Positions 18,704 through 34,680 of a stretch of DNA of 35,275 nucleotides are shown one piece after another (position 1 is the first letter of the stretch; every line of letters begins with the position of its first letter). Under the pieces are notes generated by a model. The model was not told the DNA's origin, made no database searches, and saw only the letters and a list, made by a program, of their open reading frames with translations. The position numbers and the translations under genes are program-made. The DNA lies in assembly GCA_031289675.1 (NCBI GenBank), contig JAITOZ010000238.1:1-35275 (forward strand), in the 5' to 3' direction. Source of the stretch: Planctomycetaceae bacterium. Its GTDB lineage: Bacteria; Planctomycetota; Planctomycetia; Pirellulales; Thermoguttaceae.

Positions 18704-18803
18704 CCCTCCCGCATTTACTCGCCACTCGCCACTAATCACTTTCTTCGCGGCTTCGCGATTATCATTTCCCTTTTTCAAACCGGAAACAGTATGTATCGGG
18801 CAT

Positions 18804-29203: not shown

Positions 29204-29611
29204 ATGCTCAAAATAATGGATATAAGCACAAGCGGTCTCATATCGCAGCGGATACGAATGACCGCCATCGCCAGTAATTTAGCCAACATTACTTCAACAC
29301 GCAACGAAAACGGCGAACTGAAACCTTACGACCCGCGTTTCGTCAAATTTCAGGAGGATAATACGATTGGTCCCAACGGCAGTGCCGGCGTTTTCGTTAA
29401 AGAAATTGCCCGTGATGAATTACCGCCGATACGAAAGTACGTTCCGTTTCATCCCGATGCCGATGAACAAGGTTTCATCAATCTGCCCCGCATCAATTTA
29501 GTAACCGAATTTACCGATGCCATCGAATCACAACGCTCCTACGAAGCCAACCTCGGCGCAATGGACGTAACAAAATCAATGGCAAGCCAAACGTTAAGAA
29601 TTATCTCATAA
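29204..29611 (+). CDS. flgC: Flagellar basal-body rod protein FlgC
   Basis: MDISTSGLISQRIRMTAIASNLANITSTRNENGELKPYDPRFV; C-terminal SYEANLGAMDVTKSMASQTLRI. Confidence 0.93.
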   Translation: MLKIMDISTSGLISQRIRMTAIASNLANITSTRNENGELKPYDPRFVKFQEDNTIGPNGSAGVFVKEIARDELPPIRKYVPFHPDADEQGFINLPRINLVTEFTDAIESQRSYEANLGAMDVTKSMASQTLRIIS

Positions 29612-29976
29612 TGAACGGAATCAGCGGAATTTACGGCGGTATCGGGACAACAGCGCATCATCGAATCGGCGAACTCGAACACCGTCAGGGGATGGGGAAA
29701 CTCGGCTATAAAATGGACGACCCCGACCGTCCGATGACGGCAGCCGAAATCAAAAAGACATCGTTCAAAGACCTTGTTCTCGGCGGTGTCGGCGAAGTCA
29801 ATATGCTGCAGCAGCGGGCGGACGGTGCTATCGAAAAGTTAATGTGCGGCGGAGAAATCGGAATGGCAGAAGTGTTAACTGCCGTACAAAAAGCCGACAT
29901 CGCCTTCAAAATGATGATGCAGATGCGCAACAAATTAGTGGCTGCGTATCAGGAAATACAAGGTATGCGGGTTTAA
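29611..29976 (+). CDS. fliE: Flagellar hook-basal body protein FliE
   Basis: TSFKDLVLGGVGEVNMLQQRADGAIEKL...EVLTAVQKADIAFKMMMQMRNKLVAAYQEI; overlaps flgC stop. Confidence 0.88.
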   Translation: MNGISGIYGGIGTTAHHRIGELEHRQGMGKLGYKMDDPDRPMTAAEIKKTSFKDLVLGGVGEVNMLQQRADGAIEKLMCGGEIGMAEVLTAVQKADIAFKMMMQMRNKLVAAYQEIQGMRV

Positions 29977-30036: not shown

Positions 30037-31785
30037 ATGTTAGAGCAAGCAAAAAAATTCTACGCATTGTTGAAAGACCTGTTTTTGAGTATGACACTCG
30101 GAAACAGAATCGTTGCCGCCTTGCTTCTGACAATGCTGCTGTTCTCATTCGGTTATCTTATCGTCGGCAGTATCAAGCCCAGCGACCCGGGCAGCGATGT
30201 CGTGTTTCTTTACAACCATTACCGGTTTAGTCCCAACGAAATGCGCGCAGCCGAAGCAGCCCTGCGGCTGGAAAATAAAAACGGACATCAATGGATAGGC
30301 GACCAGTTACAAGTACCGGCAAAATACGTTGCCGCTTATACCGCCGTCCTCGCCGAAAACAACGTCATTGAAAAAAACGGTTTGGCTCGGCAAATGACCG
30401 CAAAAAATCTGACGGCGTGGCAAAGTGCCAAGATGATGGACGTGCAGATGATTGCCTCAAAAGAAAAAGATTGCGCCGATGCAATTAAAATGCTCGGCGG
30501 CATTGCCGACTCAATGGTCATCAGCAATAAACGTCCCGATTGGAATCACAACGTTTGGGCAAGAACTCAAGTCTTTTCCGCTGCCGTTACCATTGAAACG
30601 ATTGAAAACAAGCCCCTCGATGATAATACGGTTGCCGCTATCGCCAGAATTGTTACTTCCGTCTTCGGCGTAACCGATATGAAAGAAATCAGCATCGTTG
30701 ATACCAAAAACAGCCGGGCATACAACGGTAACGGTGAAGAACAGAGCGGTTCACAGGGCGTTTATCTGCGGCATCAGCGCAAGTATCAGGACGATTTCAA
30801 TGCCCGCATCTATCAATTTCTGCCGCCGATAGAAGGAATGAAAGTCGAAACGGCAGTGGAACTGACGACATACAGCAACGAAGAGTATTTTGATGTCGAA
30901 CACCGCAAGCCGACGGTACTCGTTGACCACTCGATGGATTATCAGTTTCACAAGGAAGGTTACGACCGATTTGCCCGACCGGGACAGGTTGCGCAGTTCA
31001 GCCGTCCGTTGATTGACCCGTCAGCGAATGTCAGTGCGAAAGATATGACGGACGAGAAGAAAAACGAAAAGGAAACAACGAACGCTCTGCCCGGTCGGGA
31101 AACGAAACGGACAGAGATTCCGTATATTCCGCTGCGTGTCTTGGCTTCTATTCACATACCCCGCGAACATATTCGGGCAACGTGGTTACAAAAAAACAAA
31201 CGTGCCAATGAACTGCCGCCGGAACCGACACCGGAACAGTTGCTCGAAGAACAAAATGTGATGACGCAGGACACAAAACGCAGTGTCGCTAAAATTTTGG
31301 AACTGTACCGAAGTCCGAAGGTTGCCGACCCGCTGGAAATTGTTGAGGTTACCTTTTACGACCCGATTAAACCGGACGTGAAAATAGAGACAACGTGGGA
31401 AAAAATCCAAATGTTTTTACAGCATCATTGGCAGACATTGAGTTTGATGGGATTAGTTTTATGCGGTTTAACGGTGTTGTGGTCGCTTACAAAACCGCAA
31501 AAGCCTGACCCGATTGTTATTTACGAAGGACTTGAAACACCGCTTGAAGCGATTGATGCCCGGCTGAAGGCGAAAGCAGATGCGGAGGCAGAAGCCCAGA
31601 GAGAGGCGGATGCAGCCGTTGCGGAACAGGAAGAACAGATTGAGCGGCAATTAGATTCGTTCGGTTCGATTCATTCGCTTAAGGACGAAATTGCCGCTCT
31701 GATAGCGGAAAATCCCGAAGCCGCCGCCGCCGTTGTCCGCCAATGGATAGGCAATGCGGTACTGCTCGATAAGCCGACAGCGTAG
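30037..31785 (+). CDS. fliF: Flagellar MS-ring protein FliF (divergent)
   Basis: Position after fliE, TM helices at both ends, C-terminal LIAENPEAAAAVVRQWI FliG-docking motif. Confidence 0.88.
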   Translation: MLEQAKKFYALLKDLFLSMTLGNRIVAALLLTMLLFSFGYLIVGSIKPSDPGSDVVFLYNHYRFSPNEMRAAEAALRLENKNGHQWIGDQLQVPAKYVAAYTAVLAENNVIEKNGLARQMTAKNLTAWQSAKMMDVQMIASKEKDCADAIKMLGGIADSMVISNKRPDWNHNVWARTQVFSAAVTIETIENKPLDDNTVAAIARIVTSVFGVTDMKEISIVDTKNSRAYNGNGEEQSGSQGVYLRHQRKYQDDFNARIYQFLPPIEGMKVETAVELTTYSNEEYFDVEHRKPTVLVDHSMDYQFHKEGYDRFARPGQVAQFSRPLIDPSANVSAKDMTDEKKNEKETTNALPGRETKRTEIPYIPLRVLASIHIPREHIRATWLQKNKRANELPPEPTPEQLLEEQNVMTQDTKRSVAKILELYRSPKVADPLEIVEVTFYDPIKPDVKIETTWEKIQMFLQHHWQTLSLMGLVLCGLTVLWSLTKPQKPDPIVIYEGLETPLEAIDARLKAKADAEAEAQREADAAVAEQEEQIERQLDSFGSIHSLKDEIAALIAENPEAAAAVVRQWIGNAVLLDKPTA

Positions 31786-31832
31786 AACCAAAATCGGCTC
31801 TATCGCCATTTGGAAAAGAAAAACGATAAATC

Positions 31833-31914
31833 GCAAAGCCGCGAAGGACACGAAAAATATAAAAGACAATACATCAAAAAAAATTCTGCGGTCTTCGCGC
31901 CTGTGCGGTTAGGA
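31833..31914. repeat. Degenerate palindromic intergenic repeat
   Basis: aatcgcaaagccgcgaaggacacg opposed by ctgcggtcttcgcgcctgtgcggtt. Confidence 0.5.
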
Positions 31915-31944: not shown

Positions 31945-32841
31945 GTGGCTGAAGATAAACCGGTAAAAAAGAAAAAAAAGGAGCCTGATTACAGCAAGAT
32001 GCCGGTCTTTCCGAACCGGCTCGCCGAGTTTGCGCAAATACAAAACGGATTATCGCAGGAAGAAATCGTCAAACTGTTCAAGTCGCTTGCCAAGGTCAAT
32101 GAAAACCTGAAAGTCGTTCGGCGCAGACCTGTACCGGGCAAACAAATATCAAAAGAAGTCGGCGGCAAACAGCGGGAAATGCCGATAGCCGATGCCGTTG
32201 AATACGAAAAGAAACGTTTTACGGACAAGAGCGAAAAAGAAAAAAAAGTCGATGAATTGCTTGGTTTGGAATCCGGTACACTCGTTGCCCGCAACGCCGT
32301 CGGTGATTCGGTTTATCCCCGCCGTTTGTCGCCCGATGATATTGTCCGTTATGCCGAATCAGCCGATGAAAAACTGCAAATACTGGATTTAGAGCGGTCA
32401 AGACCGCCCCGTATTTTTTCGCCCCGTGAAGAGACGGTATTCGATGTGATGCTTCTGATTAAAAGATATGAAGCGGTACGGGTTGCAAAAAGAATAGCAC
32501 AGCGGCAGCGGACGGGCGTTCTCAGTAAGACGATGGAGGAACTCGAAGCGGAGTATGCGGAATGGCTTCGAGTGATGCGGGGCGACCCGCCGCCGGAAAC
32601 GGAAGAGGAAGCGGCTGCGCGGATGGTCAAAGAAGCGGAAGAACAGATTCTCGAAGAAGCCCGTCAAGCCGCAGAGGCGGCGCGAAACTTCGATAAATTG
32701 GAGAGCGTGTTCACGTTAGTGGACGATGTAACGGAATTGGTAAAAGACAATCCCGAAGCCGCCGCTGCCGTTGTCCGCCAATGGATAGGCGAAGCCGTTT
32801 TATTGGACGGAAGCGGACAAGCAGCGGGCAAGTCCGAATAA
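31945..32841 (+). CDS. Soluble hypothetical protein (orf298) with FliF-like C-terminal FliG-docking motif
   Basis: GTG start, no TM helices, charged coiled-coil-like; C-terminus LVKDNPEAAAAVVRQWIGEAVLLD nearly identical to FliF. Confidence 0.85.
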   Translation: MAEDKPVKKKKKEPDYSKMPVFPNRLAEFAQIQNGLSQEEIVKLFKSLAKVNENLKVVRRRPVPGKQISKEVGGKQREMPIADAVEYEKKRFTDKSEKEKKVDELLGLESGTLVARNAVGDSVYPRRLSPDDIVRYAESADEKLQILDLERSRPPRIFSPREETVFDVMLLIKRYEAVRVAKRIAQRQRTGVLSKTMEELEAEYAEWLRVMRGDPPPETEEEAAARMVKEAEEQILEEARQAAEAARNFDKLESVFTLVDDVTELVKDNPEAAAAVVRQWIGEAVLLDGSGQAAGKSE

Positions 32842-32893: not shown

Positions 32894-33754
32894 ATGATGA
32901 ACGGAATCAAGAAGACGGCGTTATTTTTGAGCGGACTGGACTTTGCGGCAGTCGATACCTTGTTGAGCAGGCTCGATGCGGACTCGGCGAGACAAATCCG
33001 GCGGGAAATGCTGTCCATCAAACACGGCAGCATCAGCAGCGGCGTTTCGGATAAAATCGACAACGAATTTATTAAGAAAGCCGGTTGGACAGCCAACGTC
33101 CGTCAGCGTCCGGCAGTGGAGACATTCGACCGAAAATCAGCACCGCCGGCACGTTCAGCAACTGCGCCGGCAACATATCCGGCACCGAAACCGCAGCCGC
33201 GGCAGCCTAAATACACGGCAGAATCCTTCGTTCCCTCCGTGCGTCCCTTCGGCTTTTTGCAGGATTGGTCTGACGAAGATATTGCCGCTGCCGTTGCCGG
33301 TGAACTTCCGCAAACCGCTGCGGTTATTCTGGCAAACATTCCGCAATCGAGAGCCAAAGAGATACTCCTTGCGCTGCCGCCGAAAATGCAAAACGAGGTG
33401 ACAGTCCGGCTTGCACATTACGAAGAGCCGCCGCCGATTGCCGTCGAGGAAATCGAAGCAGCCCTGCTCGAACGCTCTCCTGCACGGAGTAAGGCGGGTG
33501 TCTCCCGAAGTGCCTTGTCCCGATTGGAACGCTTAAACGACAAAGAATTGTCGCTGGTGTTTCACAGTGTTGATTTACGCATTGCTGTTACTGCGCTGGT
33601 CGGAATGAAACCGGAATTTATTGAACGTGTTACAAAAAGGTTCTCACCGACAGAGGAATACGAGATGCGTCTGATTGTCAAACATCTCGGCAGCGTCCGG
33701 CAGGAAGATATTGACGCAGCAAGAGAAAAAATTGCAATAATAATGGAAAACTAA
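32894..33754 (+). CDS. fliG: Flagellar motor switch protein FliG (divergent)
   Basis: IKKTALFLSGLDFAAVDTLLSRLD; middle-domain GELPQTAAVILANIPQSRAKEILLALPPKMQNEV; C-domain LNDKELSLVFHSVDLRIAVTALVGM. Confidence 0.85.
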   Translation: MMNGIKKTALFLSGLDFAAVDTLLSRLDADSARQIRREMLSIKHGSISSGVSDKIDNEFIKKAGWTANVRQRPAVETFDRKSAPPARSATAPATYPAPKPQPRQPKYTAESFVPSVRPFGFLQDWSDEDIAAAVAGELPQTAAVILANIPQSRAKEILLALPPKMQNEVTVRLAHYEEPPPIAVEEIEAALLERSPARSKAGVSRSALSRLERLNDKELSLVFHSVDLRIAVTALVGMKPEFIERVTKRFSPTEEYEMRLIVKHLGSVRQEDIDAAREKIAIIMEN

Positions 33755-33756
33755 AG

Positions 33757-34680
33757 ATGCGAGTAGCGAACAAAACATTTCGTCCAGCCCCTTTTAACTT
33801 CGTTGATTTGGAGGAAAAGGCAGCGGCTTACCTTGCCCAAGTGAAGACGCAAGCCCTGCAACTTGCCGAAGATGCACGCACCGAAGCCGCCCGTGTTCGG
33901 GAACAGTTAATCAAGGAGCGGGAAAAAATTACTCTTGATATCGAACAGTCCCGCTCAAAAGCCCGGCAGGAAGCCGAAACGCTGCGGAAACAATTAGATA
34001 CGCTGAATCAAAAATTGCAAACAGAAGAAGATAATTTTGCGAAGCGGAAAGAACAACTCGAAGTAGAAGCGGTGAATTTGAAATCACAGTTAAAACAGAA
34101 CGAAGACCTTGCGCGGAAGACCGGTTATGAAGACGGTAAAAAACTCGGTTACGATGAAGGACACGCCAAAGGTTATGCTGACGGCGAATTACAGGCGAAT
34201 GTCGATTACAATGACCGGCTGCAGCGGGAGGCGGAGTTGCAGATAGCGGCAAAGTTGGAAACGCTTATGCCGGCGGTGTCGTCAATGGTCGAACAGTTGG
34301 CAGCGTCAAAGGAATCGTTTTTGCAGCGTTGGGAAAACAGTGCGGTTCGGGTTGCGGTTTCGATAGCGGAAAAGGCGGTGAGCGAGCAATTACCGATGAT
34401 GCCGAATGTTCCGCTGCATTTGCTTCGGGAAGCGTTGGAACTGGGGGCGGGGAGTACATCAATGCGGATACGGCTTAATCGGGACGATTATGCAGCGATG
34501 CGCGGACACGTTGAAATGTTTGTTAAGGAGATAATGCGTACGGTACCGGCGGACATATTGCCGGACGATTTGGTATCGGCGGGCGGCTGCATATTAGAAA
34601 CGTCTTACGGAGTGATTGACAACCGCATTGAAAAGCGTCTTGGACGGATAGCGGAGGAGTTGATTCCGGCGGATAATTGA
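33757..34680 (+). CDS. fliH: Flagellar assembly protein FliH-like
   Basis: Coiled coil, GYEDGKKLGYDEGHAKGYADG glycine-repeat, C-terminal FliH/ATP synthase E-like domain (NRDDYAAM...SAGGCILETSYGVIDNRIEKRL). Confidence 0.82.
   Translation: MRVANKTFRPAPFNFVDLEEKAAAYLAQVKTQALQLAEDARTEAARVREQLIKEREKITLDIEQSRSKARQEAETLRKQLDTLNQKLQTEEDNFAKRKEQLEVEAVNLKSQLKQNEDLARKTGYEDGKKLGYDEGHAKGYADGELQANVDYNDRLQREAELQIAAKLETLMPAVSSMVEQLAASKESFLQRWENSAVRVAVSIAEKAVSEQLPMMPNVPLHLLREALELGAGSTSMRIRLNRDDYAAMRGHVEMFVKEIMRTVPADILPDDLVSAGGCILETSYGVIDNRIEKRLGRIAEELIPADN

Follow-up and report, generated by a model that had tools for sequence, protein, structure and literature searches.

A soluble protein that ends in a FliF-type FliG-docking tail is encoded between fliF and fliG in a flagellar operon of an uncultured planctomycete lineage, which suggests that the flagellar rotor of this lineage has an undescribed extra part. 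We give roughly an even chance (about 0.5) to the reading that this protein, here called X, serves as a soluble adaptor in the rotor of this one planctomycete lineage and docks on the D1 domain of a FliG. The finding is broader than the stretch of DNA from which it started (the window, 35,275 nucleotides), since X belongs to a conserved family of soluble proteins with a FliF-type tail, and the distribution of this family needs no more than a single origin.

Gene order and architecture of X

In the window, the genes are arranged in the order flgC, fliE, fliF, X, divergent fliG, and fliH. The coordinates of the open reading frames agree with the place between fliF and fliG that a preliminary description of this DNA had given to X (orf298).

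29204..29611, plus strand: flgC, named by context without a family scan; conserved synteny upstream of fliE
29611..29976, plus strand: fliE, named by context without a family scan; conserved synteny upstream of fliF
30037..31785, plus strand: fliF, MS-ring protein (PF01514, E = 1e-9; two TM segments)
31945..32841, plus strand: gene X (orf298), GTG start, 298 aa; clade-specific helical N-domain and FliF-type C-terminal tail
31945..32652, plus strand: N-terminal region of X (approximately residues 1-236), with a Lys-rich start and predicted to be helical
32653..32808, plus strand: C-terminal tail of X (approximately residues 237-288), homologous to the C-terminal FliG-docking tail of FliF
32894..33754, plus strand: divergent fliG paralogue, with FliG_N reduced to D1, a proline-rich linker replacing D2, and the torque charges lost
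33757..34680, plus strand: fliH (PF02108, E = 3e-18)

The spacer between fliF and X contains a repeat (31832-31905) that is also found at 18743-18757 and is interspersed and REP/MITE-like; the sequence CGCNAAGNCGCNAAG occurs in 62 copies in the genome, against one for the reversed control, and the copies are often arranged in inverted pairs approximately 50-180 bp apart.

The highest mean Kyte-Doolittle hydropathy over 19 residues was 0.85 for X of the window and 0.44-1.34 across 20 X proteins, whereas complete FliF proteins showed two segments above 1.6. The pair of TM helices characteristic of FliF was found in none of the 20 X proteins, in agreement with the absence of a TM helix from orf298 in the preliminary description. 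The YscJ/FliF ring-building domain (PF01514), which is present in the FliF of the window, gave no match in X; no Pfam or NCBIfam family scored above the cut-off, and no recognised domain of the soluble regulators that bind FliG was detected. For the N-domain of X, no relatives were found beyond the three genera that carry this protein. The idea that this domain is related to FliG, FliH, or a known Pfam, NCBIfam, PHROG, or PDB entry obtained no support from the searches, and profile-profile comparison of the N-terminal part with FliF, FliG, and FliH revealed no similarity. The AF2 model of X, built from three sequences, was of low confidence (pLDDT 49.5). The N-termini are rich in Lys in all X proteins, and many begin with a short hydrophobic and then polybasic stretch (MFGKKK, MGLFKKK; for example 31945-32000 in the window); this end of the protein might touch the membrane.

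At the other end of X, residues 265-288 (LVKDNPEAAAAVVRQWIGEAVLLD) correspond to residues 555-578 of FliF (LIAENPEAAAAVVRQWIGNAVLLD); both sequences read as they had been quoted when the FliF tail motif was first noticed in orf298. The best ungapped BLOSUM62 score between X and FliF was 138, as compared with 36.6 ± 4.3 (maximum 52) in 300 shuffles, which rules out a chance or purely low-complexity match. The homology extends beyond these 24 residues and spans approximately 63 columns, that is, the whole two-helix cytoplasmic tail of FliF, ending in RxWIG/RQWIG. HHalign of the X tails against the tails of FliF from this family of genomes gave E = 4.4e-23, and the pattern that they share is R-x-L-x-x-F, (S/T)-L-x-(D/E)-E, E-N-P-(D/E)-A-A-A, and R-Q-W-I-G. 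Helix 2 is almost identical in both proteins, whereas helix 1 differs consistently at W-21 (V/I/L in X and K/Q/R in FliF) and at W-18 (Ala in X and Ile/Val in FliF). From this comparison, the tail of X appears to have kept the binding helix and to have had its surroundings retuned; since helix 1 is not that of FliF, the partner or the affinity may differ. The tails of X are also more divergent than those of FliF (mean pairwise identity 0.49 versus 0.67), and inside one genome, X and FliF share 12-23 of 30 tail residues. A search of the PDB with the tail profile gave no credible match and did not recover the solved FliF tails by sequence; therefore, the equivalence with these structures rests on the homology of X to the FliF C-termini of the clade and the order.

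In the window, the two tails resemble each other more than is usual in this family, given that they share a nearly identical tract:

31711..31752, plus strand: 42-nt tract in the fliF tail, matching the tract in X
32749..32790, plus strand: 42-nt tract in X (NPEAAAAVVRQWIG), sharing 41/42 nucleotides with fliF, probably through gene conversion

Thirteen of the 14 codons of the tract are common to fliF and X, when approximately 5.7 are expected from codon usage (P = 3e-5). The identity ends sharply at both borders, and the shared residues located just outside use different codons. The tails of fliF and X in this genome were probably homogenised recently by local gene conversion. Hence, the near identity of the two motifs in the preliminary description is real, but the similarity is probably inflated in part by such an event. 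At the DNA level, across 19 genomes, the X tail was slightly closer to the FliF tail encoded in the same genome (identity 0.629) than to those of the others (0.595; P = 0.0002 in a permutation that ignores phylogeny); the FliF of the same genome was the best match to the X tail in only 5 of the 19, and the highest own-genome identity (0.80) was observed in the genome G487. Occasional conversion between the tails of X and FliF is the simplest reading of these data.

Distribution and conservation of X

Full-length X was found in 20 genomes of one family, 15 of them from the genus of the window and two and three, respectively, from two other genera, which rules out that X is confined to the window genome. 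All of these are fragmented drafts with hundreds of contigs each. Wherever the contigs permit, the order is fliF-X-fliG, with the exception of G487. As to the synteny of orf298, which the preliminary description proposed to examine, X almost always lies between these genes, and the Q-W-I-G motif was present in all 20 proteins, contrary to the alternative, considered at the outset, of a confined gene with an unconserved motif. Six further genera of the family lack X, and in them fliF directly adjoins fliG.

Over 397 genomes of the order, the X profile gave full-length matches only within the X clade. In approximately 130 other genomes the tail alone was matched (profile positions approximately 204-279), almost invariably where an open frame of approximately 550-600 aa ends, that is, at FliF C-termini. 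Wherever both loci were assembled, a genome with X has just two of these tails, that of FliF and that of X. We also considered that the tail matches in short frames might come from soluble proteins with a FliF tail in other parts of the order. Of six that were checked, five lie 9-284 bases from a contig end and one begins 304 bases after the start of its contig, which fits truncated fliF genes. No copy of X was found on plasmids. In the FliF tree, the X-bearing genomes are located on one side of a single branch with a support of 100/100, and therefore one origin of X suffices.

Seventeen residues are invariant in the 20 X proteins (K9, G35, L44, G65, A84, L144, K173, E176, A181, Q188, K195, F249, L258, Q279, W280, I281, and G282), and 11 of them precede the tail. 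Pairwise dN/dS values lay at 0.07-0.22 in X, close to the 0.10-0.23 of FliF and below the 0.15-0.25 of the adjacent FliG; the tail of X gave 0.09-0.17 where estimable. X is under purifying selection, like FliF.

In G487 the operon is dispersed, and X (L035:9288-10184), fliF (L062:1629-3374), and the divergent fliG (L142:5540-6568) lie on three contigs among unrelated neighbours, all of them intact; X, although unlinked from the operon, retains its tail. A dnaB-like helicase gene follows fliE-fliF, and X is found beside an SDR-type dehydrogenase gene and near rho (these names were read by eye from the translations). The dispersal is only suggestive, given that contigs of metagenome-assembled genomes can be chimeric. 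The possibility that X is a truncated FliF was ruled out by the lack of relationship between its N-domain and FliF (HHalign probability 0.2%), by the dN/dS values, and by the intact, unlinked copy of G487. The last two observations also count against a decaying duplicate, of which a slowly decaying version is considered below.

Two FliG proteins in the X-bearing genomes

Besides the fliG of the operon, the window genome also encodes a canonical FliG, 333 aa long, on an unlinked contig (L121 6366-7367; G000 contig C23). This protein matched the FliG of T. maritima with E = 1e-72, and chain B of 5TDY was among its PDB matches. FliM and FliN are also encoded in the genome. A third SpoA protein (L139:4908-5909; G000 contig C208) has a long N-region without a Pfam match.

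The FliG of the operon retained matches to PF14842 (2.9e-10, residues 2-64 only), PF14841 (6.5e-16), and PF01706 (1.2e-11).

32894..33085, plus strand: D1 domain of the divergent FliG (approximately residues 1-64), with the FliG_N match at 2-64 and four helices at 4-62 in the AF2 model

As compared with the canonical FliG of the same genomes, the D2 segment GG..A..L..ALG is replaced by a proline-rich linker, and the alignment revealed that the KGA and KRA..L.EEM motifs are lost, as are the charged residues of the torque helix. The AF2 model of this protein had a pLDDT of 66, with values of 79-89 for the M domain and below 50 for the linker (63-115), and FliG structures ranked first in Foldseek. 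In known motors, it is D1 to which the tail of FliF attaches (PMC6079021, PMC11087270, PMC11528121), and in the C-ring of Salmonella, the D2 hairpin completes the D1 of the neighbouring subunit (PMC11087270). Judging by its domain matches and alignment, the FliG adjoining X is a degenerate paralogue that keeps D1.

The sister genera without X likewise have both FliG proteins, and some other genomes of the phylum encode two FliG_C proteins. The divergent paralogue thus predates X, and a motor with two FliG proteins does not require X, since these sister lineages manage without it. Against FliG_C, the paralogue mostly scores lower in genomes with X (approximately 26-52 bits) than in those without X (approximately 49-84 bits), which indicates that the paralogue drifted further where X is present. 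With two FliG proteins in the genome, the adjacent one being degenerate, which of them partners X is ambiguous. The preliminary reading of a soluble, conserved, and syntenic protein with a FliF-type tail was borne out, and its reference to "the FliG" became ambiguous for the same reason. In spirochaetes, motors with FliG1 and FliG2 likewise have two FliG proteins per genome, and the portions of the source that deal with them mention no counterpart of X (PMC7225975). Unlike in these motors, the operon FliG described here has neither D2 nor the torque charges, and it is accompanied by X.

Possible roles of X in the rotor

In solved structures, the two-helix tail of FliF co-folds with, or wraps, the D1 domain of FliG, and thereby connects the C-ring with the MS-ring (PMC6079021, PMC11528121, PMC11087270). 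X has the same module as the FliF fragment co-folded with FliG_N in 5TDY and 5WUJ and seen in the Salmonella motor by cryo-EM, including the conserved Trp motif at its end, but in X this module belongs to a soluble protein that has neither TM nor ring-building domain, with an unrelated N-domain and a different helix 1 pattern. By homology to these solved complexes we infer that the tail of X binds FliG; being homologous to the FliF tail, it should be able to use the same D1 site.

In the adaptor reading, X would have arisen once, when a copy of the C-terminal tail of FliF was joined to a helical protein or the tail evolved at the end of one, and would have stayed between fliF and the divergent fliG. 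Like the tail of FliF, that of X would most likely fold into the D1 of a FliG, so that X would sit at the inner ring of the C-ring, on the membrane side; the N-domain would then be available to hold some other part, plausibly the divergent FliG encoded next to it, and the FliF tails would hold the canonical FliG. The choice between the FliG proteins and the identity of what the N-domain holds are speculative. A mirror-tree analysis with control for overall divergence gave r = 0.57 for the FliF tail with the D1 of the canonical FliG and r = 0.50 for the N-domain of X with the M/C region of the divergent paralogue; the tail of X did not correlate significantly with the D1 of either FliG (r = 0.09 and 0.15). 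This analysis was exploratory (15 comparisons over 13 related genomes), and its correlations are hints only. A more specific proposal, tentative and rather doubtful, is that two kinds of tail serve two kinds of FliG, with FliF tails holding the canonical, torque-generating FliG, and X tails either attaching the torque-less paralogue or filling FliG D1 sites in excess of the number of FliF, which would add a layer to the C-ring or enlarge it independently of the MS-ring.

The adaptor reading has to be weighed against others. An unlikely one is that X is an assembly chaperone whose tail occupies the D1 of FliG and keeps it folded or monomeric until it is displaced by FliF. A soluble surrogate could indeed stabilise FliG_N, which changes its conformation upon taking the FliF tail (PMC6079021); the altered helix 1 could mean a weaker, exchangeable binding, and X is encoded directly ahead of the divergent fliG. 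Nevertheless, the large N-domain of X, with 11 of the 17 invariant residues, exceeds what a plug needs, and the six sister genera in which fliF lies beside fliG without X argue that such a helper is not generally needed. We regard as improbable that X acts as a clutch or competitor, driving FliF off FliG and thereby uncoupling or regulating the rotor. Its docking helix is that of FliF, with helix 2 almost identical, and in a Salmonella switch an unidentified regulator bridges the region of the FliF tail and FliG D1 (PMC11087270); against this, X is encoded among structural genes in a conserved fliF-X-fliG order, and the Pfam and NCBIfam searches revealed no sensory or regulatory domain. Equally improbable is a tail that lost FliG binding and took another role (e.g., self-association), or a slowly decaying duplicate kept by its position in the operon. 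The greater divergence of X tails would fit with it, but the QWIG invariant in 20/20 proteins, the dN/dS of the tail (0.09-0.17), and the retention of X outside the operon in G487 speak against it.

YcgR, EpsE, and FlhF are soluble proteins that act at FliG or at the MS/C-ring. X is likewise soluble, but it matches no Pfam or NCBIfam family above the cut-off and would bind through a tail derived from FliF. A possible analogy is SctK, the adaptor between the membrane ring and the SctQ pods of the injectisome, which is also a soluble linker of a membrane ring to a cytoplasmic sorting or switch complex; no sequence relation between SctK and X was found.

To our knowledge, in every motor known the joint between the MS-ring and the C-ring consists of the FliF tail locked with the D1 of FliG. 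Whether the two rings agree in subunit number is a matter of continuing debate (PMC11087270). If the adaptor reading is true, a soluble protein carrying the key of FliF means that this joint can be decoupled from the copy number of FliF, and that a core rotor interface was copied to recruit a new part. X would also be a ready reagent, as a soluble mimic of the FliF tail, for probing the assembly of the C-ring, and it would give a possible function to the second, divergent FliG, which several genomes of the family and the order encode.
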